A stretch of 40,621 bases of DNA from an uncultured Bacilli bacterium (GTDB lineage Bacteria > Bacillota_I > Bacilli_A > RF39 > UBA660), in assembly GCA_947627675.1 (NCBI GenBank), contig CANQWY010000008.1, positions 1-40,621 of the forward strand, given 5' to 3'. A model generated the notes under the pieces. It was not told where the DNA came from. It saw nothing but the letters and a program-made list of their open reading frames with translations, and searched no databases. Positions 1 to 40,621 of this stretch are shown here, piece by piece (positions within the stretch are counted from its first letter, which is position 1; every line of letters starts with the position of its first letter). The translations under genes and the position numbers were made by a program.

Positions 1-17
1 TCCTATCGGGGATACCA
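1..17 (+). other. attL: tRNA 3' end (T-stem/acceptor/CCA) containing the 12-bp core TCCTATCGGGGA
   Basis: TCCTATCGGGGATACCA reads as T60 + CCTAT + CGGGGAT + A73 + CCA. Positions 1-12 are repeated exactly at 40610-40621. Confidence 0.8.
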
Positions 18-10049: not shown

Positions 10050-10451
10050 ATGAAATTAGAAAAAGAAGTTAATATATATGAAATAAATCATTGGACTAAT
10101 ATATCAAAAAATTTTGGAGTTGATTTAACAATAGGCATAAAAGATTTATTAAATGAAAAAGAAATGGATATATTAAATACTATTATAGAGAAAAATAAAA
10201 TAAAATTAACTTTAGAAGTAGAAGAACCAATACTTGATGAAGAAGAAAGAAAATATTTAAGCGGTGTTATTAGACCTTTTAGAGATAGGATTAAATTTAT
10301 TAAAAAAAGTAGTTTTTCAACTGGCAGAGAATATATTCATATTGAAACAAAAGATAATTATATGATGACTATGTTTCCATTCGAGCCAAATACTATGTAC
10401 AAGAACATGGAATTAAATAAAGAATATACATTAGAGGATTTGCAATTATGA
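10050..10451 (+). CDS. Hypothetical protein
   Basis: ORF with RBS directly upstream of rtcB. Confidence 0.55.
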   Translation: MKLEKEVNIYEINHWTNISKNFGVDLTIGIKDLLNEKEMDILNTIIEKNKIKLTLEVEEPILDEEERKYLSGVIRPFRDRIKFIKKSSFSTGREYIHIETKDNYMMTMFPFEPNTMYKNMELNKEYTLEDLQL

Positions 10452-11725
10452 AAGATTTGAAAATATTTACGAATAATATCGAACAAGAAGCAATAGACCA
10501 AATTAATTTGTTACTTGAACAAAAAGCATTTAAAAATAGCAAAATTAGAATAATGCCTGATGTTCATGCAGGTAAAGGTTGTGTAATTGGTTTTACTGGC
10601 GATTTAGGTGATAAGGTTATACCTAATATAGTTGGTGTAGATATTGGTTGCGGAATGTTATGTGTTGAGTTAGGAAATATAGATATAGATTTAGAAAAAT
10701 TAGATAGAGTTATTCATGAATGTGTACCAAGTGGAATGAATGTTCATGAAAATCAAAAATACAAGTTTTTGGAAATGGAACAATTATATTGTTTAAAAAA
10801 TTTAAAAAATAAAGATAATTGGTTAGAAAAGTCAATGGGAACTTTAGGTGGGGGAAATCACTTTATAGAAATTGATATTGATGAAGATAATAATAAATAT
10901 TTAGTAATTCATACAGGTAGTAGAAATCTAGGAAAGCAAGTATGCGAAATATACCAAAATAAAGCGATTGAATATTGCTCTTATAAAAATGAAATGCAAG
11001 AAGAAAAAGATAAATTGATTCAAGAATATAAAGAACAAGGTAGACAAAAAGAAATACAAGGTGCCTTAATTGAGATAAGCCAAAAATATGATGGAAAAAC
11101 TAAACTTCCTAAAGATTTATGCTATTTAGAGGGAAAAGATAGGGAAGATTATTTACACGATATGAGAATATGTCAAGAATTTGCTAAAGACAATCGTTTA
11201 TGTATTGCTAAACAAATACTATGTAATTACTTTGAAGTGCCATACAATAAAGATTGCTTTAGTGTTAGATTAAGAGAAATACCTACAGAACCGTCATTTT
11301 TTACGCAAGATTGGGTGGAGCATGATTTTTGGTATTTTCAATGTATTCACAACTATATAAATTTTGATGATAATATCGTTCGCAAAGGTGCTATATCAGC
11401 AAAATTGGGTGAAAAGGTACTAATACCGATGAATATGCGAGATGGCTGTATTATTGGTGTCGGAAAAGGGAATGATGATTGGAATAAATCTGCGCCACAT
11501 GGAGCAGGTAGAATTATGTCTCGTATGGAAGCGAAGAAAACGTTTAAAATAGAAGATTATAAACAATCTATGGAAGGTATTTATACGACATCAGTAAATG
11601 AAGATACAATCGATGAAGCACCATTTGTTTATAAACCAATGCAAGAAATAATTGATTGTATAGGTGATACAGTTGATATTATAAAAATTATAAAACCGAT
11701 TTATAATTTTAAAGCAAACGAATAA
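10448..11725 (+). CDS. rtcB: RtcB-family RNA-splicing/repair ligase
   Basis: MPDVHAGKGCVIGFT, VGVDIGCGMLCVEL, GTLGGGNHFIEI, HTGSRNLGKQV, PHGAGRIMSRMEA. Confidence 0.95.
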   Translation: MKDLKIFTNNIEQEAIDQINLLLEQKAFKNSKIRIMPDVHAGKGCVIGFTGDLGDKVIPNIVGVDIGCGMLCVELGNIDIDLEKLDRVIHECVPSGMNVHENQKYKFLEMEQLYCLKNLKNKDNWLEKSMGTLGGGNHFIEIDIDEDNNKYLVIHTGSRNLGKQVCEIYQNKAIEYCSYKNEMQEEKDKLIQEYKEQGRQKEIQGALIEISQKYDGKTKLPKDLCYLEGKDREDYLHDMRICQEFAKDNRLCIAKQILCNYFEVPYNKDCFSVRLREIPTEPSFFTQDWVEHDFWYFQCIHNYINFDDNIVRKGAISAKLGEKVLIPMNMRDGCIIGVGKGNDDWNKSAPHGAGRIMSRMEAKKTFKIEDYKQSMEGIYTTSVNEDTIDEAPFVYKPMQEIIDCIGDTVDIIKIIKPIYNFKANE

Positions 11726-16107: not shown

Positions 16108-16515
16108 ATGGAATTATTTGAACTAAAAGAGCAAATAGAAGATACCAACATAGATATAGAATATTATAAAAGGGAAATAGAGAGATTAGAAACTAAAGTA
16201 GGAATAAGAGCATCAGATCCATCTAAAGAGATTGTAAAAGGTGGTAGATTTTCAAGAGAGGATGCATTGCTACAATTAGCTCAAATATCATCATATTTAG
16301 ATGATGCATTAAAAAGATTATCAAACCTTAATAGTGCAAAAGATAAAAAATACGAGTTATATCGTAAAGCAAACGATTATGATAGGCAGATATACATAGA
16401 AAAGAGATTATTCAAGTGGAGTAATGCTAAAATATCAGCTAGGCACTGTGGAATATCCAAGAGGACAATAAATAGAATAGTTAAAAGGATTGAAGAAAAG
16501 AGGAACAAAGAATGA
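16108..16515 (+). CDS. ArpU/RinA-like late transcription regulator
   Basis: C-terminal sigma-like HTH LFKWSNAKISARHCGISKRTINRIVKRIEEK; positioned before the late region. Confidence 0.6.
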   Translation: MELFELKEQIEDTNIDIEYYKREIERLETKVGIRASDPSKEIVKGGRFSREDALLQLAQISSYLDDALKRLSNLNSAKDKKYELYRKANDYDRQIYIEKRLFKWSNAKISARHCGISKRTINRIVKRIEEKRNKE

Positions 16516-17396
16516 TAAAGCAGAAAATGTTTAAAACATTAAATGAATACAAAAAAATATTGGAAGAACAAGGATATAAAGTTATATATGTTGGATTATA
16601 TGGTTCACAAAATTATAATTGTGATGATGAATATAGTGATATAGATGTTAAAGCAATCATTCTTCCAACTTTACATGATGTCATTTTTAGGAAAGTAACT
16701 AGCAAAGTTATTGAATGTGAAAAAGGTTCTATTGATGTAAAAGATTTAATTACATTTTACGATGTTATTAAAAAAGGTAATTTTTCTTATATTGAAAGTA
16801 TTGATACTAAATATTCGATAGGTGATAAATATATAAAATCATTATTTAGTCAATTTAAACCAAATTTAAAAAGTATATTAGGGGCAATGCATGAGAAAAG
16901 AAAAGCATTGACACATGAATATCCAAGTAAGTACAAAGAATTTGAACAATGGGGATTTGACCCAAAACAATATCATCACATTGTTAGATTGCTTCACTTA
17001 TTACAGGAGATAGATAAAACTAAAAAGGTTGTTAGTTATTTGGAATATGAAGATGGTAGTGAAAGAGAAGATATGATATCAATTAAAAGAAATAATTTTA
17101 ATTATACAAAAGAACAAGTGGAAACACTTAGTGATATATGTATAGAGGAAGCAAAAAAATACATACCAGATGATTATAAATATGTACCAATTAACATAGA
17201 TAATGAAATAAATGATTTTATAGAAAATAACATTAAAATTGAATTGTTGAAGAATCAACCAGCTTTGTCAGCGAGAGAATATCGTACATTTGATGGAGAT
17301 ATTCCCAAGAAAGATTTAGAAAAATTTCCAATATTAGAACAATATAAAGGCAAAGATATCTCTTATATTGTCTATGAAAGTGTCGAAATACTATGA
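16512..17396 (+). CDS. Pol-beta-superfamily nucleotidyltransferase
   Basis: VGLYGSQNYNCDDEYSDIDVKAIILP (GS-x-DxD motif). Confidence 0.8.
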   Translation: MIKQKMFKTLNEYKKILEEQGYKVIYVGLYGSQNYNCDDEYSDIDVKAIILPTLHDVIFRKVTSKVIECEKGSIDVKDLITFYDVIKKGNFSYIESIDTKYSIGDKYIKSLFSQFKPNLKSILGAMHEKRKALTHEYPSKYKEFEQWGFDPKQYHHIVRLLHLLQEIDKTKKVVSYLEYEDGSEREDMISIKRNNFNYTKEQVETLSDICIEEAKKYIPDDYKYVPINIDNEINDFIENNIKIELLKNQPALSAREYRTFDGDIPKKDLEKFPILEQYKGKDISYIVYESVEIL

Positions 17397-17572
17397 GCCT
17401 AGATAAAGCAATAGCACATGGTAAAGAAAAACGCAAGCCATATAGAGGTGCAAAAGCAGTTGATATCCATTGCAGAAATCACGGTGGAGTTAGACATCAA
17501 CGGGAATGTGTATGGTGCAGAGAAAATCGTACTTATAAAAATAGAAAAAGAATGGTAGGTGATATTAAATGA
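17393..17572 (+). CDS. Small CxxC/His-containing protein (59 aa)
   Basis: MSLDKAIAHGKEKRKPYRGAKAVDIHCRNHGGVRHQRECVWCRENRTYKNRKRMVGDIK; overlapping starts/stops. Confidence 0.6.
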   Translation: MSLDKAIAHGKEKRKPYRGAKAVDIHCRNHGGVRHQRECVWCRENRTYKNRKRMVGDIK

Positions 17573-18468
17573 GTTTTAGAAAATATCAACATATTGAAAA
17601 ATTTGGAACAGATGAAGTAGCAGGAATTGAAGCAGGATTATGCTATGTATTCTATAAAATTGACGGAACTAATTCATCAATTTGGAAAGATGAAAAAGGA
17701 TTGCATTTCGGAAGTAGGACTAGAGAACTTACACTTGATAATGATAATGCAGGATTTATGAATGCAATGATAAATGATGAACGAATAATTAAGTATTTTG
17801 ACAAACATCCTAATCACAGATTATACGGTGAGTGGTTAGTCCCTCATGCCTTAAAAACATATAGAGACGATGCTTGGAGAAAATTTTATGTATTTGATGT
17901 GGTTATTGATATTGATGAAGAAAATGTTGAATATTTAACATATGAAACATATAAATCAATGCTTGATGAATTTGATATTGATTATATACCACCAATTTGC
18001 ATAGTGCGAAATGGTAATCCAGAAACTTTTATTAGGTGTTTAGAAAAAACAGGTGAATTTCTTGTTAAAGATGGTATGGGTAATGGAGAAGGAATAGTTA
18101 TTAAAAACTATGATTATCAAAATAAATATGGTAGAAAAACTTGGGCGAAAATAGTAGGCAACGACTTTAAAGAAAAGCATCATAAAGCTTGGGCACCAAA
18201 TATAATAAGTGATGGAATTTGTGTTGAAGAAAAAATTGTAAATCAATATGTAACTTCAACTTTAGTAGAAAAGGAATATTCTAAAATATCTATTGATGGG
18301 TGGTCTAGTAAAAAAATACCGCAATTATTAAGTACAGTTTTTCATTGCTTGATAACCGAAGAAATGTGGAATATATTAAAAGAATATAAAAATCCAAAAA
18401 TTGATTTTAAAGTATTACAAAACTTTACTATAAGAAAAATTAAGGAAATAAGGGAAGATATTTTTTAA
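17569..18468 (+). CDS. T4 Rnl2-like RNA ligase
   Basis: Motif I FYKIDGTNSSIW, RLYGEWLVPH, GEGIVIKNYDY, KTWAKIVG. Confidence 0.85.
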   Translation: MSFRKYQHIEKFGTDEVAGIEAGLCYVFYKIDGTNSSIWKDEKGLHFGSRTRELTLDNDNAGFMNAMINDERIIKYFDKHPNHRLYGEWLVPHALKTYRDDAWRKFYVFDVVIDIDEENVEYLTYETYKSMLDEFDIDYIPPICIVRNGNPETFIRCLEKTGEFLVKDGMGNGEGIVIKNYDYQNKYGRKTWAKIVGNDFKEKHHKAWAPNIISDGICVEEKIVNQYVTSTLVEKEYSKISIDGWSSKKIPQLLSTVFHCLITEEMWNILKEYKNPKIDFKVLQNFTIRKIKEIREDIF

Positions 18469-19479: not shown

Positions 19480-19555
19480 CGCAGGGTAGAGCAGTTGGTA
19501 GCTTACAAGTGTCGTTAACTTGTGGTCGTAGGTTCAAGTCCTACCCCTGCAACCA
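19480..19555 (+). tRNA. Initiator-like tRNA with CGU anticodon (reads ACG)
   Basis: 76 nt, canonical numbering: acceptor 2-7/66-71 paired with a C1xA72 mismatch, D-stem GAGC/GCTT with A11-U24, anticodon stem CAAGT/ACTTG with loop GTCGTTA, T-arm GTAGG-TTCAAGT-CCTAC, encoded CCA. Confidence 0.92.
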
Positions 19556-19580
19556 ATTAAGATAAATAGGAGGAGATAAA

Positions 19581-19793
19581 ACGAATTTAGATAAAATGAT
19601 AAAGGTAAAGTTATTAACATTAAGTTCTAAATATGATATATCTCTGATAGAAATACAAAAACCTAAAGATGGTAAAATAAGCAGAGTATTTAATTTTAAT
19701 TATAGATTAAAAGATGCTCCGAAGTTAGATAATATTTGTAAAATATTTTATAACAAGAGAGACTTAGTGAGTTGGTTATTATGCCTAGATTAA
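19581..19793 (+). CDS. Small pre-terminase protein, ACG start
   Basis: AGGAGG-7 nt-ACG AAT TTA GAT AAA ATG...; the in-frame ATG at 19596 lies 22 nt from the SD. Confidence 0.65.
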   Translation, partial: TNLDKMIKVKLLTLSSKYDISLIEIQKPKDGKISRVFNFNYRLKDAPKLDNICKIFYNKRDLVSWLLCLD

Positions 19794-21415
19794 CTGATAA
19801 GCAGAGAAAAGAGATAATTGCCGAGTATGTTGACTGTCAAAGTTACAACAAAGTTGCTAAAAAACATAAAATATCTGCTACTACTGTTAAAAAATGGGTA
19901 TTAAAAGATGTTGATAGTGTAAAAAAGTGCGAACAAAAAAAAGAAGAGAATACACAATCAATGCTATCAATGATAGAACAAACCAATAACAAGCGACTTA
20001 CTGTTATTTCTAAATTAGTTGATGCAATTGATTCAAAAATTGATAAAGTAGACCAATTTACAAATGTAAAAGATTTAGCTAGTGCATATGGAGTACTTAT
20101 AGATAAAGAGTTAAAGTTTGCCGAAATGCAAAATATTAAAAAGAATGCTGATGGGCAAAATGTTTCTTTACCTGCTAAGGATATTGGAAAATCATTTGTA
20201 GATTTAAACAGATGGATAGATGATAGAAGATATCTTGAATACTGGTTAGAGGGTGGACGTGCTTCTATAAAATCATCTTTTGCTAGCGAAAAAGGGATAG
20301 AAATTTTAGAAAATAATCCTAATATGTGTGCTATTTGTATTCGTAAAGTGGGAAACACCTTAAAGGATTCTATATATAGTCAAATGTTATGGGGAATAGA
20401 TAAGTTGTCTGAGACTTATCCTGATATTAGAGAACGATGGATAGCAACAAAAAGTCCATTAGAAATAAAAAATAAAGACACTGGACAAATAATTTATTTT
20501 AGAGGTGCAGACGACCCAGGGAAGATAAAATCAATAAAACCACCTAAAGACAAATATATCGGATTAATAATTTATGAAGAGTTTGACCAAATGAATGGAA
20601 TGAATGAAGTGCGAAAAATAGATCAATCAGTAATTCGTGGTGGTAATGATTTCATAGTGTTTAGATTATATAATACACCTAAATCTAACAATCACTTTGT
20701 CAATAAAGAAAAATTATTACCTAAATCCAATAGACTTGTGCATAAAAGCACTTATTTAGATGTGCCAGTTGAATGGTTGGGGCAACCTTTTATAGATGAA
20801 GCAGAATTTATAAAAAGTACCAACTATAAAATATATGTTAATGAATATTTAGGTGAGGCAACTGGAGACGGTGGTAATGTATTTGAAAATGTAGAATTAA
20901 GAGAAATAACTGATGAAGAGATAAAGAACTTTGATTATTTATATCAAGGCATGGATTTTGGGTGGTATCCCGACCCACTTGCTTGGGTAAAGATGTGTTA
21001 TCAATCAAACAAATTAACATTGTACATTTTCAATGAATTTGTAGTTAATAAAATGAGTAATGCAGATGTTTGGAAATATTTAAAAGAGAATAAAGGTGTT
21101 AAAGAAGAAGACCTAATAACTGCTGACAGTGCAGAGCCTAAATCAATAGGTGATTTTCAAAGTTATGGCTCATTGATGAGAGGTGCTAAAAAAGGTCCTG
21201 ATAGTGTGGAATATTCAATGAAATGGTTATCTGGTTTAGTTAAGATAGTTATAGATCCAAAAAGATGCCCTAAATGTGCCGAGGAATTTACAACATATGA
21301 ATATGAACAAGATAAAGACGGCAATTATATAAGTGGTTATGTTGATAAAGACAATCACTGCATAGATGCTGTAAGGTATGGTTTAAATCCTATATGGAGA
21401 AAGAAAGGAGAATAA
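19781..21415 (+). CDS. Terminase: small-subunit HTH region fused to the large subunit
   Basis: N-terminal YNKVAKKHKISATTVKKWVL HTH; then EGGRASIKSSF Walker A, GLIIYEEFDQM Walker B, YQGMDFGWYPDPLAWVK nuclease domain. Confidence 0.9.
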   Translation: MPRLTDKQRKEIIAEYVDCQSYNKVAKKHKISATTVKKWVLKDVDSVKKCEQKKEENTQSMLSMIEQTNNKRLTVISKLVDAIDSKIDKVDQFTNVKDLASAYGVLIDKELKFAEMQNIKKNADGQNVSLPAKDIGKSFVDLNRWIDDRRYLEYWLEGGRASIKSSFASEKGIEILENNPNMCAICIRKVGNTLKDSIYSQMLWGIDKLSETYPDIRERWIATKSPLEIKNKDTGQIIYFRGADDPGKIKSIKPPKDKYIGLIIYEEFDQMNGMNEVRKIDQSVIRGGNDFIVFRLYNTPKSNNHFVNKEKLLPKSNRLVHKSTYLDVPVEWLGQPFIDEAEFIKSTNYKIYVNEYLGEATGDGGNVFENVELREITDEEIKNFDYLYQGMDFGWYPDPLAWVKMCYQSNKLTLYIFNEFVVNKMSNADVWKYLKENKGVKEEDLITADSAEPKSIGDFQSYGSLMRGAKKGPDSVEYSMKWLSGLVKIVIDPKRCPKCAEEFTTYEYEQDKDGNYISGYVDKDNHCIDAVRYGLNPIWRKKGE

Positions 21416-21416
21416 A

Positions 21417-22715
21417 ACGTTTAAATTATTTTGGAGTAAAATTCTTGCTTTGTTTGGCAAAAAGCAGAACAATGATGAATTATTAATTGATGCAAACGAA
21501 AAATTTACAATAGATTATGAAAATACCAGAGATATTAATTTTACATCTATATTTTCCAACAAATTAGCAAATTATGTGGTAAATGATTCTAATATAGATT
21601 TAACAGGGGATGATAAAAGATCAGAACTGTTAAAAAAGATATTAAAAAAGTTAAGAAAGAAATTAAAAAAAGTAGTATGTCGAGAGTTAGGAACAGGCGG
21701 TGTTCTTGTTATTCCATATGTCACTAATAACAATATTTATTACAATATAGTTTCACAAAATAGATTGTGCATAAATAAAAAAATAGGTGACGATATAGTA
21801 GACTGTACTATAATGGCAGAGCATGTTGTAAAAAGCAAAAACCATTATTATAGATGGGCAGATTATACTTTGAACGATGGTACATTGTATGTTAAGTATA
21901 GGGCTACATTGGATGGTGACCCAGTACCTCTTTCAACAATTAATGAATGGGCAAACATAGAAGATATGGTTATACCTAACGTTGAAAAAATGCTATTCGC
22001 TTATATAAAGTCTCCAATAGATAATAGACACGAGAATGATGACTACGGAGTGCCTATAACTTATGGTTGCGATAAGCAAATTATGGAGATTAAAGATACA
22101 TTAAATCAAATATTGAGAGAATATAAACTTAAAGAGGCATTTGTAGGAGCAGATGTAACAATGTTTAAGGGTGATGATGCACTACCTACTAATGGCTTAT
22201 ATAAAAAAGTTAATTCTGGGGAAGATGACTTTTGGGAAGTATTTGATCCAGCATTTAGGGATACATCTTACTATAATAAGTTGATGAATCAATGCGCCTT
22301 ATTAGAAAAGCAAATAGGTACAAGTAGAGGAATTATTACAGAGCCATTATCAACATATCAAAATACAGATGAGACAAGGCGCTCATTATACGACACATTT
22401 AGTATAGTTGATGATATACGAGACGGAATAGTCGATGGGTTAGAAGATTTTATATATGCATGTAATGTTTTAGCAAATTATTATAATTTAACACCAATGG
22501 GAAAATATGAGATAAAAATAGATTGGGATTATTCGTATATTGAGGATAGCTCTGCGAATTATAATCAATTAGTTAGTGGTGTTAATCAGGGTGTTATAAA
22601 GAAATCTGAATTAAGACAATTTATTAAACCTGAAGAAACTTTAGAACAGGCGCAAGCAGTAATAGATGAAATAAAAAAAGAGAGCCCAACTACAAAGGAT
22701 TTATTAGGAGATTGA
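21417..22715 (+). CDS. Portal protein, ACG start
   Basis: AAGGAG-6 nt-ACG TTT AAA TTA TTT TGG AGT AAA... (FKLFWSKILALFGKKQ); no in-frame ATG for >100 codons. SPP1/phi29-type portal content, e.g. IGTSRGIITEPLSTYQNTDETRRSLYDT. Confidence 0.85.
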   Translation, partial: TFKLFWSKILALFGKKQNNDELLIDANEKFTIDYENTRDINFTSIFSNKLANYVVNDSNIDLTGDDKRSELLKKILKKLRKKLKKVVCRELGTGGVLVIPYVTNNNIYYNIVSQNRLCINKKIGDDIVDCTIMAEHVVKSKNHYYRWADYTLNDGTLYVKYRATLDGDPVPLSTINEWANIEDMVIPNVEKMLFAYIKSPIDNRHENDDYGVPITYGCDKQIMEIKDTLNQILREYKLKEAFVGADVTMFKGDDALPTNGLYKKVNSGEDDFWEVFDPAFRDTSYYNKLMNQCALLEKQIGTSRGIITEPLSTYQNTDETRRSLYDTFSIVDDIRDGIVDGLEDFIYACNVLANYYNLTPMGKYEIKIDWDYSYIEDSSANYNQLVSGVNQGVIKKSELRQFIKPEETLEQAQAVIDEIKKESPTTKDLLGD

Positions 22716-24893: not shown

Positions 24894-24904
24894 AAAAATA
24901 AATA

Positions 24905-24933
24905 AAGCACTTAAGAAGTAAAGTGCTTTTATT
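24905..24933 (+). terminator. Terminator-like hairpin
   Basis: AAGCACTTAAGAAGTAAAGTGCTTTTATT. Confidence 0.5.
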
Positions 24934-24935
24934 AT

Positions 24936-25229
24936 GCACTACTTTATAGGTAGTGTGATGGTAGTATATATGAGCGGATAGGAACCTTATACTGTTTCTT
25001 GACGAAGAAACGCCAAGTGTACATATAAAGGCAAGTAGGGTGGAGTTATGAAAATTCCTATGGCAGTCGGGTGGAACTCCCCATCCGTCAGTAAAACAGT
25101 ATATTACTGTCACAGTGCTTATAAAATAGCACTATCACTCATCTACCAAGAGTAGATAGAGTCCTTGTGTCGTTAATAATTAAATGTTGACGATAACTGT
25201 TTTAAGTCGATAGAAGTATCGGCTTTTTT
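24936..25229 (+). ncRNA. Structured non-coding RNA candidate B, related to candidate A
   Basis: ORF-free; hairpins CACTACTTTATAGGTAGTG, GTTTCTTGACGAAGAAAC, ACAGTATATTACTGT, GTGCTTATAAAATAGCAC, ATCTACCAAGAGTAGAT; ends in a terminator; shares GCAGTCGGRTRGAACT and CACTAC...GTAGTGT...GATGGTA with candidate A. Confidence 0.65.
25204..25229 (+). terminator. Rho-independent terminator of ncRNA candidate B
   Basis: AAGTCGATA-GAAG-TATCGGCTTTTTT. Confidence 0.85.
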
Positions 25230-25315
25230 GGTGTGGCATAGCAACCGTAGGACTAGCAAATATCTAAAATTCTAGGAGGACACGACCTCTGAAAAAAGTG
25301 GAAGGAGAAGAAGAT

Positions 25316-25946: not shown

Positions 25947-26804
25947 ACGGAAAATTTAACAAAATTAGAAAACATGATTGACCCTGAGGTCATGGCACCA
26001 ATGATAAGTGCCAAATTAGAAAAGGCTATTGTAGAAACTCCATTTGTAAAGGTTGATACAACATTACAAGGACAGCCAGGAAGTACTGTTACAGTACCAA
26101 AATATAAATATATAGGAGATGCTGAGGATGTTGCAGAAGGTGTTGAAGCTGGTGTAACTAAATTAGAGACATCTAGTGAACAATACACAATAAAAAAGAC
26201 AATGAAAGCAGTAACATTATCTGATGAAGCAGTATTAAGTGGTTATGGTAATCCAGTAGGAGAAACTAATAATCAATTAGCACTTGCTATGCGTGCTAAA
26301 GTAAATACTGACATTATCAATGCTTTATTGACTGCATCATTAACTCACTCTGAAGAAGGGATTATTAGTTATGAAGGTATAGTAAGAGCAATTGATAAGT
26401 TTAATGAAGAAGTAAATACTGATAAGGTAATGTATGTTTCTCCAGCTCAAGTTACACAATTAAGACTTGACCCAAATTTCATTAGTGCAGACAAATATAA
26501 CAATGATGTTGTTATGACTGGTGAAATAGGTAAAATCGCTAATGCTAGAATTATACCTAGTAGAAAGATAGTTGCAAGTGGAAGTAAATTTAAATGTCCT
26601 ATTGTTCAATTAAACCCTGAACCAATGACAGATGATGATACTCCAGCAGTAACTGTATATTTAAAACGTGATATTAATGTTGAAACTGAGAGACATACAC
26701 TTTCAAGAACAACTGATATATCTGCTGATGAAAATTATATTGCTGCATTAACTGATGAGAGTAAAGTAGTAGTTGTTGAATTTGCAGAAACTGCTACACC
26801 CTAA
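25947..26804 (+). CDS. Major capsid protein, ACG start (unshifted form)
   Basis: AAGGA-7 nt-ACG GAA AAT TTA ACA AAA TTA GAA AAC ATG...; HK97-type content NMIDPEVMAPMISAKLEKAIVETPFVKVDTTLQGQPGSTVTVPKYKYIGDAEDVAEG. Confidence 0.9.
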   Translation, partial: TENLTKLENMIDPEVMAPMISAKLEKAIVETPFVKVDTTLQGQPGSTVTVPKYKYIGDAEDVAEGVEAGVTKLETSSEQYTIKKTMKAVTLSDEAVLSGYGNPVGETNNQLALAMRAKVNTDIINALLTASLTHSEEGIISYEGIVRAIDKFNEEVNTDKVMYVSPAQVTQLRLDPNFISADKYNNDVVMTGEIGKIANARIIPSRKIVASGSKFKCPIVQLNPEPMTDDDTPAVTVYLKRDINVETERHTLSRTTDISADENYIAALTDESKVVVVEFAETATP

Positions 26805-27573: not shown

Positions 27574-27916
27574 TACAAGTCTTACATTGTTTCATAAACG
27601 ATTTAATACGGAAAGTAGAATTGATGAATGGGATAGATATTTAATTGAAAATGTTATGTGGCAAGGAGGAAAAGGTGCTAGTATCAACAAAGGTTATGAA
27701 AGAGCTAATGATATTAGCGTTTGGATACCTTATGACCAAAACAATGATTTAAATGCTGTCCCTTTTGCTATTGGAGATATAGTTGTAAAAGGAAATATTG
27801 AGCAAAGTATCACTAAACAAAGTGATTTGCAGGTAGACAATTTTAATATTACAACTTTAATAAATAATGATTATGGAAGTTACGATATGCAACATATTTT
27901 TATAGGAGCAAAATAA
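27563..27916 (+). CDS. Minor capsid/head-closure protein
   Basis: Order and content (VWIPYDQNNDLNAVPFAIGDIVVKG). Confidence 0.7.
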   Translation: METNTSLTLFHKRFNTESRIDEWDRYLIENVMWQGGKGASINKGYERANDISVWIPYDQNNDLNAVPFAIGDIVVKGNIEQSITKQSDLQVDNFNITTLINNDYGSYDMQHIFIGAK

Positions 27917-28317
27917 CGAGTGTTTATTTGAAGCCGGTAAGCACTATAGAAGCAAGGTTAGGTATTCAAAACGGTGGACCAGCTCATGCTTATTTCACAG
28001 AACAGTGCTATAAACATATGATGCCGTTTGTTCCCGGTGGAGTTATAAGTCATTTAAATAATCTTGCAAAGTTAAACGTTGACAGTATAACTTATGCAAG
28101 CCCAGATGCACATTATTTATATGTAGGAAAGTTATACGTTGATCCAGTAACAAAAAGTAGTTATGCAAGAAAAGGTGTAACAAAAATTCCTACTAATAAG
28201 AATTTAAAATATCATACACTTGGTACAGGTGCTTTTTGGGATAGAAGAATGATAAGTTTTGACATGAATGAGGTAGTGAAAGAAGTACAGACGTATGTAG
28301 ATAGAGGGTGTAAATAA
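27916..28317 (+). CDS. Minor capsid protein 2-like, ACG start
   Basis: AGGAG-7 nt-ACG AGT GTT TAT TTG AAG...; ACG overlaps the previous TAA (TAACG); FTEQCYKHMMPFVPGG. Confidence 0.8.
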   Translation, partial: TSVYLKPVSTIEARLGIQNGGPAHAYFTEQCYKHMMPFVPGGVISHLNNLAKLNVDSITYASPDAHYLYVGKLYVDPVTKSSYARKGVTKIPTNKNLKYHTLGTGAFWDRRMISFDMNEVVKEVQTYVDRGCK

Positions 28318-28739
28318 CGATAGATAAGATAAGGAAATATTTTATTGAAAATAATATTATTGATGAAAATGGCAGAATTAATGTAGATTTCTTAGGTGAA
28401 AATCCTACGGAATTTGCCTTAGAACCCATGCCTGTTAATCCAATATTAAATTCGTTTATTAATGGTGATTCTTTAAGACAATTTCAATTTCAACTGTTAA
28501 GTTGCAATTATTATGGAGCAGATGTAATGCAAAACATGTCTAATAGCAAATATTATGAGGACTTATATAAATTGATAGAGAAATTTAATAGAGAAAAGAA
28601 CCTGCCTAATATAGAGGGTATTAAAACTATCGAATGCTTAAATAATGGTGGAATTTTAGATGCTAGTACAAATACTGCTAGGTATTCTATACAAATGAGA
28701 GTTACTTATTATGAAAATCAGAGAGGAGTAAATAAATGA
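28317..28739 (+). CDS. Minor capsid protein 3-like (tail terminator region), ACG start
   Basis: TAACG stop/start overlap; 37 additional codons before the ATG used by the ORF track; PVNPILNSFINGDSLRQFQFQLLSCNYYG. Confidence 0.8.
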   Translation, partial: TIDKIRKYFIENNIIDENGRINVDFLGENPTEFALEPMPVNPILNSFINGDSLRQFQFQLLSCNYYGADVMQNMSNSKYYEDLYKLIEKFNREKNLPNIEGIKTIECLNNGGILDASTNTARYSIQMRVTYYENQRGVNK

Positions 28740-28957
28740 AAACTATAATAGCAAAAAAAGACTTTAGACTTAATGGAAAATACTATTATAGAGATAGTGA
28801 AATCAAAATAAAGAATTATGCTGATTTAGTTAAATTAAATCAAAATGGATTTATTATACCTCTAAGTTCTGAAGATATGAAAGAAAAAAAAGAAGAGTTA
28901 AAAAATAAAAGAAGTGTTACTTTGAAAAAAAAGAAGGAGGAAGAAGTAAACGGATAA
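28736..28957 (+). CDS. Hypothetical late protein
   Basis: ORF with GAGAGGAG RBS. Confidence 0.6.
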   Translation: MKTIIAKKDFRLNGKYYYRDSEIKIKNYADLVKLNQNGFIIPLSSEDMKEKKEELKNKRSVTLKKKKEEEVNG

Positions 28958-29438
28958 TAAATTAGAACAATTATATCGTGATCAATTTGCTCATTATTAT
29001 AATACTACACCTGATAAAGAAGAAACTTGGGTAAGAGAAGGAGTAGGTGTAGAGGCCTTAAGTATGGCTTTTAATGCACAAGTAGATCAATACAAAACTA
29101 TAATTGACAGAAATGCCAATGCGACATTTAATAACTATCAAATACAAAGTGCTGTAAGTGGTAAAAGAATTTATAAAGGCGATGCAATTTATGATTTCTT
29201 AAATACTGCTAGAAAAAAAGCAAAAGCCATTGAAACTCAATTACTAGAAGTAGATATGGCTGATAGTGCAGATGAGGGCGAAAGCTTTGCATCATTAAAG
29301 TACAATGTATTAATAGTAATAAATGAATTTTTAGGGGACGGAGCAACAATAAGCTATGATTTATATGTAAAAGGGGATCCTGTTGAGGGAACATCAACTA
29401 TTGCTGATGGTAAACCAACTTTTACAGCAACAGTTTAG
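28950..29438 (+). CDS. Major tail protein, ACG start
   Basis: AAGGAGG-9 nt-ACG GAT AAT AAA TTA GAA...; 38 additional codons before the track ATG; position before tail chaperone and TMP. Confidence 0.75.
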   Translation, partial: TDNKLEQLYRDQFAHYYNTTPDKEETWVREGVGVEALSMAFNAQVDQYKTIIDRNANATFNNYQIQSAVSGKRIYKGDAIYDFLNTARKKAKAIETQLLEVDMADSADEGESFASLKYNVLIVINEFLGDGATISYDLYVKGDPVEGTSTIADGKPTFTATV

Positions 29439-30006: not shown

Positions 30007-30590
30007 ACTATCCAGAATATGTAAAAATTGGAGAAAAAAAATACAAAATTAACACAGACTTTAGAGTAGCAATCGAGTGTAATTCAATTGCGACTGATGT
30101 TGAAATAAGTGATTATGAAAGAGCATTAGGGATAATCTACAAATTATTTGGTGAAGATGGACTTAGTGATTTTGATAATCACGAAAAGTTGTTAGAATTA
30201 GCAAAAAAATACTTATCTTGTGGTAAAGAAATACAGGAACAAATTACAGAAGAGCCCGATATGGATTTTGTTCAGGATATGGATTATATAAAAGCAAGTT
30301 TTAGAAGTGATTATTCTATAAATCTTGACGAAGAAAAAATGCATTGGTGGGAATTTTGCAATTTACTAAATGGATTATCTAATAGTGAAATGGGTAACTG
30401 CTGTATACTTAATAGAATTAGAAATTTAAGGAATTTAGACTTAAAGGATATTAAAGATCCAAAAGAAAGGGAAAAGTTGTTAAAAGCGAAGGAGCAAGTT
30501 TCTTTAAAGAAAAGAAGGCATAAAAAACAATTTACTGAAAAGCAAATAGAAAATATGAAGAAATTTTATGAAAAAACAAAAGATTTCTAG
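30003..30590 (+). CDS. Phage Gp15-family tail chaperone
   Basis: KINTDFRVAIECNSI...ERALGIIYKLFGEDG...WWEFCNLLNGL. Confidence 0.75.
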   Translation: MNYPEYVKIGEKKYKINTDFRVAIECNSIATDVEISDYERALGIIYKLFGEDGLSDFDNHEKLLELAKKYLSCGKEIQEQITEEPDMDFVQDMDYIKASFRSDYSINLDEEKMHWWEFCNLLNGLSNSEMGNCCILNRIRNLRNLDLKDIKDPKEREKLLKAKEQVSLKKRRHKKQFTEKQIENMKKFYEKTKDF

Positions 30591-30603: not shown

Positions 30604-32952
30604 ACGGATGGTTGGATTACAATAGGTACTAAATTAGATTCAAACAGTTTGGACAAGGATTTAAGGGATAGTGAAAGAAAACTTAAACAATACGAACGAG
30701 AGGCAGAGAAATTAACAAAACAAAAGGCAAAAATAGATATTGATTTAAGTAGTTATGAAGCAGAAAAGACTAAAATACAAGAAGAAACAGACGAAATATT
30801 AAAACAAGCAAATGCGGAAGAGCAAGTTAACTATATATTAGAATCCGAGAAAATACAGTTGGAAGATTTAGAAACCAAATATAAAAAAATTTTAGATAAA
30901 AATAATGAAATAACAAAAGAATTAGAAGAAAATATAAGTAATCAAGGATTATTAAACACCAAAGTTTCTGAAATGAAAGAAAAATTATCTCAGACTCAAG
31001 GTTACAATGAAGTAAAAAAATCTATTGATAATATAGGTAATTCGATGAGTAGCATAATAGGAAAGGTTGCAAAATGGTCTTTAGCTATTTTTAGTGTAAG
31101 AAGCGCTTATTCTTTAATTAGTAGTTCAATGAGTACACTTTCACAATATGATGAGCAAATGGCTACGGATATTGAATATATTAGATATGCTTTAGCATCA
31201 GCATTAAAGCCGGTAATAGAGGGCATTATTCAACTTGTTTATAAATTGTTAGCATATGTAAATTATTTAGCACAGGCTTGGTTTGGTGTAAATTTATTCG
31301 CTAAAGCGGGTGCTGATAATTTTGCTAAAGTAAGTAGTGGGATAAAGGATGCTACTAATAATGCAAAGGAATTAAATAAGCAACTAACTGGATTTGATGA
31401 AATGAATGTATTACAAGAGAATGGTCAAGTTTCAACAGGTGGTGGAGGTGGAGGAACAACTTTGCCAAGTGTTGATTTAGGAAATATTCAAGATGTAGAA
31501 ATACCAAGTTGGTTAAAATGGATTAAAGATAATGGGGAACTTATTGCAGGACTTATTACAGGGATAGGATTAGCATTATTGGGATTTAAAATAGGAAATT
31601 TTATTTCTAATATAACAAATAGTGGAAAAGCACTACAAGGTTTTGGGGATATAGTATCTAGTGCTACATTCTTAACAGGACTAACAATACTTATTACGCA
31701 TTTATCTAACTTAATTACTCACTGGAATAGCCTAGATACATCTGAGAAAGCTGCTGAAGTTGTTTTTGTTGCATTCGGAGTTGCACTTATGGCGCTAGCA
31801 GTTGTAATAAGAACAGCAATAGATACTGCTACATTTGGAGTTGCTGAAATCATAAGTTTAGTTGTAATAGCAATTGCAGGACTTGTTGCAGGAATATCAG
31901 AATTAACAAGTGTTTTGAATGATAATAATGGTAGAGTGTTTGATGCTACTGAAGCACAAGAGAATTTAACTGATGCGATTAACAATACAAAACAAGCAAC
32001 AGAGAATTATGCCAACTTCTTAGATAATTATGATAATGCTGTCAAAAGAGCTGAAGAGGCTACAGAAAAATTAACTACCGTTCAAAATGAAACAGGAATA
32101 AGCATAGATAAACTTTTAGAAAAAATGGAAGAAGAAAATTTATCTTATATAGATTTAAATGATAATGAAAAAAAAGTTTATAAAGCTTATTATGACAATA
32201 TGGCGGCTCAAGACAATCTAAAGAAATCCACACAAGATTTGGAAGAGGGGGTTGATGCTATAGTTGAAGCTAAAAAGACTGAGCATGATGCTTATTGGAA
32301 GAATGAAGTTGCTATAGCACAACAAAATAAATCTTACGATAAATTAAAAGAAAAAGTTATTGATGCATTTAAAAATGGAGAATTAAGTGCAGAAAGTGCT
32401 AGAGATATAATAGCAAGATGTATGGGGGATATGAGCGAAGATGCAGCCAAAACTTTCGGGAAAGATATACCTAAAGAAATAAAAGAGGGATTAGATCCTC
32501 AACAATATCATTCTAATGGATATAAATTAGGAAAATTTTTTGAAAATACTTGGAATGAAGCATTTAAATCTGTTAAGGATACTTTTAATAGTATTGGAAA
32601 ATTCTTTGGATTTTCTTCTGGAGGAGTAACAACAGGTAAAACAGGTTTCTACAATGGTGGTATCATTGGATTTGAAAATGGCGGAGTAACTAGGAATGTT
32701 GTTAAATGTGCTAACGGTTCTATTATAAATCAACCTGGAAGAGGAGTACCTATATCAACAGCAGTCGGTGGAGAACGCGGACAAGAAGGTATAATTCCAT
32801 TAACTAATAGTCAAATGATGGAACAACTTGGACAAGCAATAGGAAGATATATAACTGTAAATACACAAATGAACAATTATATGAATGGTAGATTAATAAG
32901 TAGAGAGATACAAAAAGTACAAAATAATAGTGATTTTGCAATGAACAGATAG
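30604..32952 (+). CDS. Tape measure protein, ACG start
   Basis: AAGGAG-6 nt-ACG GAT GGT TGG ATT ACA ATA GGT ACT AAA TTA (DGWITIGTKLD); long coiled-coil and hydrophobic segments. Confidence 0.9.
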   Translation, partial: TDGWITIGTKLDSNSLDKDLRDSERKLKQYEREAEKLTKQKAKIDIDLSSYEAEKTKIQEETDEILKQANAEEQVNYILESEKIQLEDLETKYKKILDKNNEITKELEENISNQGLLNTKVSEMKEKLSQTQGYNEVKKSIDNIGNSMSSIIGKVAKWSLAIFSVRSAYSLISSSMSTLSQYDEQMATDIEYIRYALASALKPVIEGIIQLVYKLLAYVNYLAQAWFGVNLFAKAGADNFAKVSSGIKDATNNAKELNKQLTGFDEMNVLQENGQVSTGGGGGGTTLPSVDLGNIQDVEIPSWLKWIKDNGELIAGLITGIGLALLGFKIGNFISNITNSGKALQGFGDIVSSATFLTGLTILITHLSNLITHWNSLDTSEKAAEVVFVAFGVALMALAVVIRTAIDTATFGVAEIISLVVIAIAGLVAGISELTSVLNDNNGRVFDATEAQENLTDAINNTKQATENYANFLDNYDNAVKRAEEATEKLTTVQNETGISIDKLLEKMEEENLSYIDLNDNEKKVYKAYYDNMAAQDNLKKSTQDLEEGVDAIVEAKKTEHDAYWKNEVAIAQQNKSYDKLKEKVIDAFKNGELSAESARDIIARCMGDMSEDAAKTFGKDIPKEIKEGLDPQQYHSNGYKLGKFFENTWNEAFKSVKDTFNSIGKFFGFSSGGVTTGKTGFYNGGIIGFENGGVTRNVVKCANGSIINQPGRGVPISTAVGGERGQEGIIPLTNSQMMEQLGQAIGRYITVNTQMNNYMNGRLISREIQKVQNNSDFAMNR

Positions 32953-32962
32953 GAGTGGTGTA

Positions 32963-33337
32963 ACGTATGTAGATAAAGACAGTGTTGTTGTAGATGGGCT
33001 ATCTATGGGGCCATATATTGTACAGGCAACATTCGGATATTATAAATTATGGAGTTCTGACAGTGGCAGAAACCTAGCAGGAACACAATCAGGAACATTA
33101 ATAGGAATTTTCCCTAAAATAATACTAGAATTTAGACCAGATTTAACAAAAGATGAATTAAATAAAATAGCTGCTATTTTAGATAAAGCAAATCAAACTG
33201 TTGAGTATTTTGATGCTAATAAAAACAAGAAAATAACAATGACTACTTATACTGGAGATTGGGAATTGGTAAATACAAGCATAAATAAAAACAAAGGGTT
33301 TAATTGTTCATTTATAAGTGTTAGGAAGAGAGCATAA
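32963..33337 (+). CDS. Tail protein (DUF6711-like), ACG start
   Basis: AGGAG-7 nt-ACG TAT GTA GAT AAA GAC...; 14 codons upstream of the track ATG. Confidence 0.7.
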   Translation, partial: TYVDKDSVVVDGLSMGPYIVQATFGYYKLWSSDSGRNLAGTQSGTLIGIFPKIILEFRPDLTKDELNKIAAILDKANQTVEYFDANKNKKITMTTYTGDWELVNTSINKNKGFNCSFISVRKRA

Positions 33338-40609: not shown

Positions 40610-40621
40610 TCCTATCGGGGA
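40610..40621 (+). repeat. attR core, direct repeat of 1-12 (TCCTATCGGGGA)
   Basis: Exact 12-bp direct repeat at the opposite edge of an integrase-to-HNH prophage. Confidence 0.8.

Follow-up and report, generated by a model that had tools for sequence, protein, structure and literature searches.

A phage-encoded initiator-like tRNA with a CGU anticodon and Shine-Dalgarno-led ACG starts in late virion genes

The single tRNA of the window, the whole 40,621-nt stretch of DNA analyzed here, is very probably a dedicated second initiator, encoded by a phage, that starts translation at ACG codons led by a Shine-Dalgarno (SD) sequence and thereby acts as a translational licence for late virion genes. 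As read from the DNA, the case is made up of the structure of the tRNA, the SD-led ACG starts, the confinement of these starts to the late module and the match between anticodon and start codon across distant phages. The contig is a phage or prophage, carrying an integrase (95-1222) as well as terminase, portal, capsid, tape measure and endolysin genes. The 12-bp repeat TCCTATCGGGGA is present at both ends of the window (1-12 and 40610-40621) and may represent an attachment-site core or the overlap of a circular contig.

Structure and identity of the tRNA

The only tRNA that ARAGORN reports for the window lies at 19480-19555 on the plus strand, has a CGT anticodon starting at position 34 and is named tRNA-Thr(CGT). 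The locus scores 51.6 bits against the Rfam tRNA model (gathering score 29), and its fold is better than that of 200/200 shuffled sequences (z=-3.0). The tRNA with a CGU anticodon that a sequence-only reading had proposed for this site was thereby confirmed. Position-by-position numbering of the 76 nt yields a C1xA72 mismatch, A73 and an encoded CCA end, and reveals that G2:C71, C3:G70 and A11:U24, the formylation determinants of bacterial initiator tRNA (PMC7949028), are all present. The initiator marks named in that reading, C1xA72 and A11-U24, were thereby confirmed, and the same numbering proved it correct on the loss of the three classical G-C pairs of the anticodon stem and on the presence of G32 and U37. 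Indeed, the stem (CAAGT/ACTTG) contains A-U at 29:41, G-C at 30:40 and U-A at 31:39, such that G30:C40 alone is kept of the three consecutive G-C pairs at 29-31:39-41, while the loop reads G32 U33 C34 G35 U36 U37 A38. The three G-C pairs favor binding to the P-site and the loss of all of them impairs initiation in E. coli (PMC4611024, PMC7949028), with 29:41 and 30:40 being the most important of the stem pairs (PMC11231383). On sequence grounds, the presence of 30:40 alone is therefore to be counted against the initiator reading.

The anticodon is CGU rather than CAU, so that the gene is not filed as a tRNA-fMet, and the closest relatives at the DNA level are ordinary phage tRNA-fMet(CAU) genes. 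With the bacterial initiator tRNA-fMet (CAU) the window tRNA shares the 1:72 mismatch, G2:C71, C3:G70, A11:U24, G30:C40 and A73, whereas it differs in the CGU anticodon, in U37 instead of A37 and in the replacement of two of the three stem G-C pairs. Both an initiator tRNA-fMet(CAU) and an elongator tRNA-Thr(CGU), the latter without initiator features, are already encoded by the host (1.57 Mb draft genome), so that no codon lacks a tRNA. The sequence of the window tRNA is unique within the host genome. An origin as a copy of a host gene was rejected: in a pattern search of 386 genomes at order level and 396 at phylum level, the tRNA turned up in no genome other than this one, and here on this contig alone.

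CGU is a valid threonine anticodon, and the name assigned by ARAGORN would suit an ordinary elongator that supplements the decoding of ACG codons and resembles an initiator by chance. We regard this as very improbable. The C1xA72 mismatch and A11:U24 are kept in the window tRNA, unlike in the threonine tRNAs of the host; the host tRNA-Thr(CGU) pairs G1 with C72 and carries a D-stem of the elongator type. Furthermore, codon supplementation was rejected because the host already has a tRNA-Thr(CGU) and because ACG is rare inside the late genes of the window (17/5360 codons). An elongator would also leave unexplained why start codons match the anticodon, as described below.

ACG starts in the late genes of the window

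Every codon of the window was scored for the strength of SD pairing upstream and for the open frame that follows. Among SD-led codons, ACG ranks second to ATG (4/19 with a strong SD, p=1e-3), a rank that it also holds when the rules are tightened. Start candidates with ACG were found for eight late genes (at 19581, 21417, 25947, 27916, 28317, 28950, 30604 and 32963), all of them on the plus strand; 8/8 lie downstream of the tRNA, while 26/26 qualifying starts upstream of it are ATG. The first follows the tRNA directly, the sequence running CCA-attaagataaata-GGAGGAG-ataaa-ACG with 25 nt between the tRNA and the ACG. This element (19569..19583; SD -10.2 kcal/mol) is the only match to GGAGG-spacer-ACG in the window, and it opens a gene of 70 aa (19581..19793), in which an in-frame ATG at 19596 has no SD and whose product has no match among the PHROG profiles.

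The portal protein (21417..22715; phrog_533) starts at an ACG with an SD of -8.7, the next possible start being a TTG 11 codons further on. For the major capsid protein (25947..26804; phrog_544; SD -5.7), residue 3 aligns to position 4 of the profile, and the minor head protein-like gene (27916..28317; phrog_556) has an ACG that overlaps the upstream stop codon. PHROG profiles reach to within a few residues of the ACG in three further genes, namely the tail completion protein (28317..28739; phrog_3266), with residue 2 at profile position 4 and the first ATG at residue 38, the phrog_3099 protein (28950..29438; SD -11.7), with residue 5 at profile position 5 and the first ATG at residue 39, and the phrog_1194 protein (32963..33337; SD -6.9), with residue 18 at profile position 17 and the first ATG at residue 15. 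The phrog_1194 family starts at AGG in phage G398 and at ACG in G400. The tape measure protein (30604..32952; phrog_1535) has an ACG with an SD of -8.7; an in-frame ATG upstream of it, at 30568, lacks an SD and was counted against the ACG reading.

The terminase large subunit (19781..21415, plus strand; Terminase_3 and Terminase_3C) is a late gene that kept ATG. Since some late genes do so, the translational lock is incomplete. The terminase carries an N-terminal extension of ~145 residues that appears helix-turn-helix-like by eye and is possibly a fused small subunit. Within the late operon, ahead of the scaffold gene, 407 nt of non-coding sequence (24894-25300) form a strongly structured RNA (MFE -120.9 kcal/mol, z=-5.9), for which Rfam gave no credible match; it contains GUGUCGUUAA, a 10-mer identical to one in the anticodon arm of the tRNA.

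Scoring of SD sequences in a genome of 28% GC is prone to false positives, and a few other codons score as well, so that the ACG sites might be chance look-alikes in genes that start at a later ATG, GTG or TTG. This reading is barely credible in view of the homology of the encoded proteins. In seven capsid relatives without such a tRNA, an SD-led ATG lies one codon away from the site that aligns with the ACG at 25947. In addition, the stretch TKLENMIDPEVM of the window capsid is identical in the relative L046 and spans the next downstream ATG; conservation across this codon means that translation of the capsid protein must begin upstream of it. Protein conservation likewise extends upstream of later ATG codons in other genes, and several open reading frames have no canonical start within 100 codons. 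Chance SD matches are thus argued against by the codon scan, the strict criteria, five relatives without the tRNA and the enrichment of the cognate codon in other phages.

Matching anticodons and start codons in other phages

A scan of IMG/VR for an initiator D-arm combined with a non-CAU anticodon returned many initiator-like tRNAs, with the anticodons CGU (reading ACG), CUU (AAG), CCU (AGG) and UAU (AUA), each one base away from CAU. The class proposed on this basis is defined by an initiator-like body, a non-CAU anticodon, location on a phage contig and cognate SD-led late starts, all of which are found for the window tRNA. The phages are distant from each other, with an identity of mostly 20-35% between structural proteins of different anticodon classes. 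Phage initiator-like tRNAs with GUU, CAC (reading GUG), CAG (reading CUG) or UAC anticodons (L072/L083, L086-L088, L089/L090, L074) showed no cognate-start signal where scanned and were left out of the class, as were CGU or UAU tRNAs in high-GC contigs (L033, L057, L073). Six further pattern matches (L053, L056, L066, L076, L082, L120) were rejected as unconvincing initiator tRNAs.

When identical criteria were applied to all contigs, the 12 SD-led ACG starts were all in CGU phages (p=1e-9) and the 48 SD-led AGG starts all in CCU phages (p=2e-19), with 0 in the remaining contigs in either case; ATA starts numbered 10 (20 ATG) in UAU phages and 19 (276 ATG) elsewhere (p=6e-5), and AAG starts 5 (47 ATG) in CUU phages and 8 (249 ATG) elsewhere (p=0.05, weak alone), with p-values that overstate the number of independent events because some contigs are near relatives (G397/G793/G794, G398/G791, G390/G391); by similarity of structural proteins there are roughly seven or eight lineages. 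In the five relatives without the tRNA, the same criteria gave no ACG, AGG or ATA starts. The start codon of equivalent genes follows the tRNA: the portal protein starts at ACG (window, G400), AAG (G391), AGG (G397, G398) or ATA (G790), the major head protein at ACG (window), AAG (G391), AGG (G398) or ATA (G790), the terminase small subunit at ACG (G400) or AAG (G391), and the tape measure protein at ACG (window, G400) or ATA (G790). In G403, which has a UAU tRNA, the frame of the relative of the G400 terminase small subunit opens at ATA. AAG is kept at the aligned start of capsid proteins that are just 47% identical, and several open reading frames with cognate starts contain no ATG, GTG or TTG in their first 100 codons. 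As in the window, most cognate starts across the class belong to the late module, and ATG is retained by the early genes.

A 1:72 mismatch (CxA, CxU, AxA or GxA), A11:U24 and G30:C40 are present in every member that has matched starts. At 31:39, U.G or U-A generally takes the place of G-C, and most members have U at position 37. The features that the sequence-only reading had called odd, the anticodon stem and U37, hence recur across the class. Strong support for its central proposal, a phage initiator tRNA retargeted to ACG, comes from the SD-led ACG starts in the downstream late genes, from the ATG at the aligned capsid start in relatives without the tRNA and from the agreement of CCU, CUU and UAU anticodons with AGG, AAG and AUA starts in other phages.

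Base 37 of the tRNA also covaries with the mRNA base at -1, as counted after removal of homologous genes. In U37 phages, A is found at -1 in 33/38 cognate starts compared to 72/162 ATG starts (p=1e-6). In A37 phages, U is found at -1 in 15/23 cases compared to 3/38 in U37 phages (p=3e-6), a signal that was treated as suggestive because it comes mainly from one lineage and G396 disagrees. An artefact of overlapping upstream stop codons was not supported by the overlap check. U37 seems to pair with the A directly before the start codon, which suggests a four-base contact between the start site and the tRNA.

Non-AUG starts can give some initiation in bacteria, and ACG could accordingly serve as a weak start for the host tRNA-fMet that keeps virion proteins low or delayed, the phage tRNA being unrelated. 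This is highly unlikely: capsid and portal proteins have to be made in large amounts, a CAU anticodon pairs very poorly with AAG or AGG, and in all four classes the start codon in use goes with the phage-encoded anticodon, just as the base at -1 changes with base 37 of the tRNA. Initiation by the phage-encoded tRNA remains the preferred reading.

Outside this class, BLAST searches of GenBank and cultured phages with the class tRNAs gave almost exclusively tRNA-Met where annotated, and 5/5 unannotated records that were checked have CAU. In Lysinibacillus contaminans (L035, 289-363), an fMet-like CGU tRNA lies beside three CAU copies in a tRNA cluster and may be a mutated copy of the host initiator. 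Further fMet-like CGU tRNAs occur in records of Ciceribacter, Xylophilus, Ca. Jorgensenbacteria and Rhizobium (L034, L036, L037, L038).

Proposed mechanism, purpose and relation to known systems

By inference, the window tRNA is made and charged in the cell and works in the P-site of the ribosome, and the licence it provides is temporal. The late transcript would begin with the tRNA, which is located at the head of the late module; in the promoter search, promoter-like sites were no more numerous than expected by chance. After processing, the tRNA would be charged, formylated and bound by IF2, and would then act at SD-led ACG codons. Formylation is proposed because of the 1:72 mismatch and A11:U24, and these retained features, together with G2:C71 and C3:G70, would mark the tRNA for formylation as well as for exclusion from elongation. 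Given the CGU anticodon, the first amino acid would be placed at SD-led ACG codons, where U37 probably adds a fourth pair with the A at -1. The portal, capsid, connector, tape measure and other late genes appear to have switched from AUG to ACG, while early genes keep AUG, so that efficient translation of the switched genes would become possible only after the phage tRNA has been made.

MetRS reads CAU (PMC4611024), and a CGU tRNA is therefore plausibly charged with threonine, which we consider somewhat more probable than methionine. Methionine would fit as well, since GCN is frequent as the second codon at cognate starts, as it is in Met-Ala starts. In the laboratory, re-coded initiators start with amino acids other than methionine (PMC11231383, citing Chattapadhyay et al. 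1990). Extended to the class, and with confidence a little short of even, several phage lineages may have a private initiation code, in which the anticodon is one base off CAU, base 37 extends the pairing to four bases, virion proteins begin with Thr, Arg, Lys or Ile depending on the anticodon, late genes are placed under a lock, and the starts are missed by gene callers that accept ATG, GTG or TTG.

With respect to purpose, as opposed to the mechanism of initiation, the altered initiator might mainly escape host nucleases of the VapC type, which cut the anticodon arm of tRNA-fMet, with the start codons having followed. Indeed, the anticodon arm differs from that of the host tRNA-fMet at the stem, the loop and the anticodon, and VapC cleavage of tRNA-fMet, as well as phage tRNAs that evade anticodon nucleases, have been described (PMC10264068 and works cited there). 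The window encodes RtcB RNA ligase (10448..11725, plus strand; PF01139, E=3e-58) and, upstream of the tRNA, a further RNA ligase (17569..18468, plus strand; PF09414, E=4.7e-17), both of which are possible candidates for tRNA repair with a putative link to the start system. An RlaP-like protein at 16512-17396 gave a weak match below the Pfam cut-off; the three genes together suggest an RNA-repair set for defense against tRNA-cutting nucleases. G398 also has an RNA ligase (phrog_968; L101 2287-3435, minus strand), which itself seems to start at AGG. By contrast, most other members, some of which are fragments, yielded no RNA ligase or RtcB, and escape from nucleases would not need new codons that are confined to late virion genes. 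As the main purpose, nuclease escape is thus rather unlikely, and a translational lock on late genes is preferred, although both can hold. The phage tRNAs known to evade tRNA-targeting defenses likewise have an altered anticodon loop and occur in phages with RNA-repair genes, but they substitute for cleaved host tRNAs, whereas here the decoding specificity is changed and the genes have been rewritten to match (PMC10264068).

The closest analogue is provided by engineered amber initiators, i.e. UAG-reading tRNA-fMet (reviewed in PMC11231383), which likewise combine an initiator body with a new anticodon and a matching non-AUG start. These are laboratory constructs, whereas the pair of tRNA and start codon described here is natural, phage-encoded, used by many virion genes and present in several lineages. 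The papers searched, which took in few subscription journals and no bioRxiv preprints, contained no natural precedent for an initiator tRNA whose altered anticodon goes with matching start codons. In the prevailing view, every bacterium relies on a single initiator specificity (CAU) and on AUG-like start codons. Phage suppressor tRNAs recode stop codons, such that a phage-encoded tRNA changes the meaning of a codon for late genes. The present case resembles stop-codon recoding in that a phage tRNA alters codon meaning in late genes, but differs in that the change takes place at initiation and on sense codons, the meaning of which during elongation is presumably untouched.

The pairing of ACG, AGG, AAG and AUA starts with their tRNAs looks like a natural second start code for late genes. 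If true, the capsid, portal and tail genes of these phages are cut short or overlooked by gene callers restricted to ATG, GTG and TTG, and the tRNAs may supply natural parts for orthogonal initiation in synthetic biology. A natural second initiator for ACG, AGG, AAG or AUA would show that the identity of the start codon can be re-coded much like that of stop codons, and phages could thereby switch on their virion genes at the level of translation.
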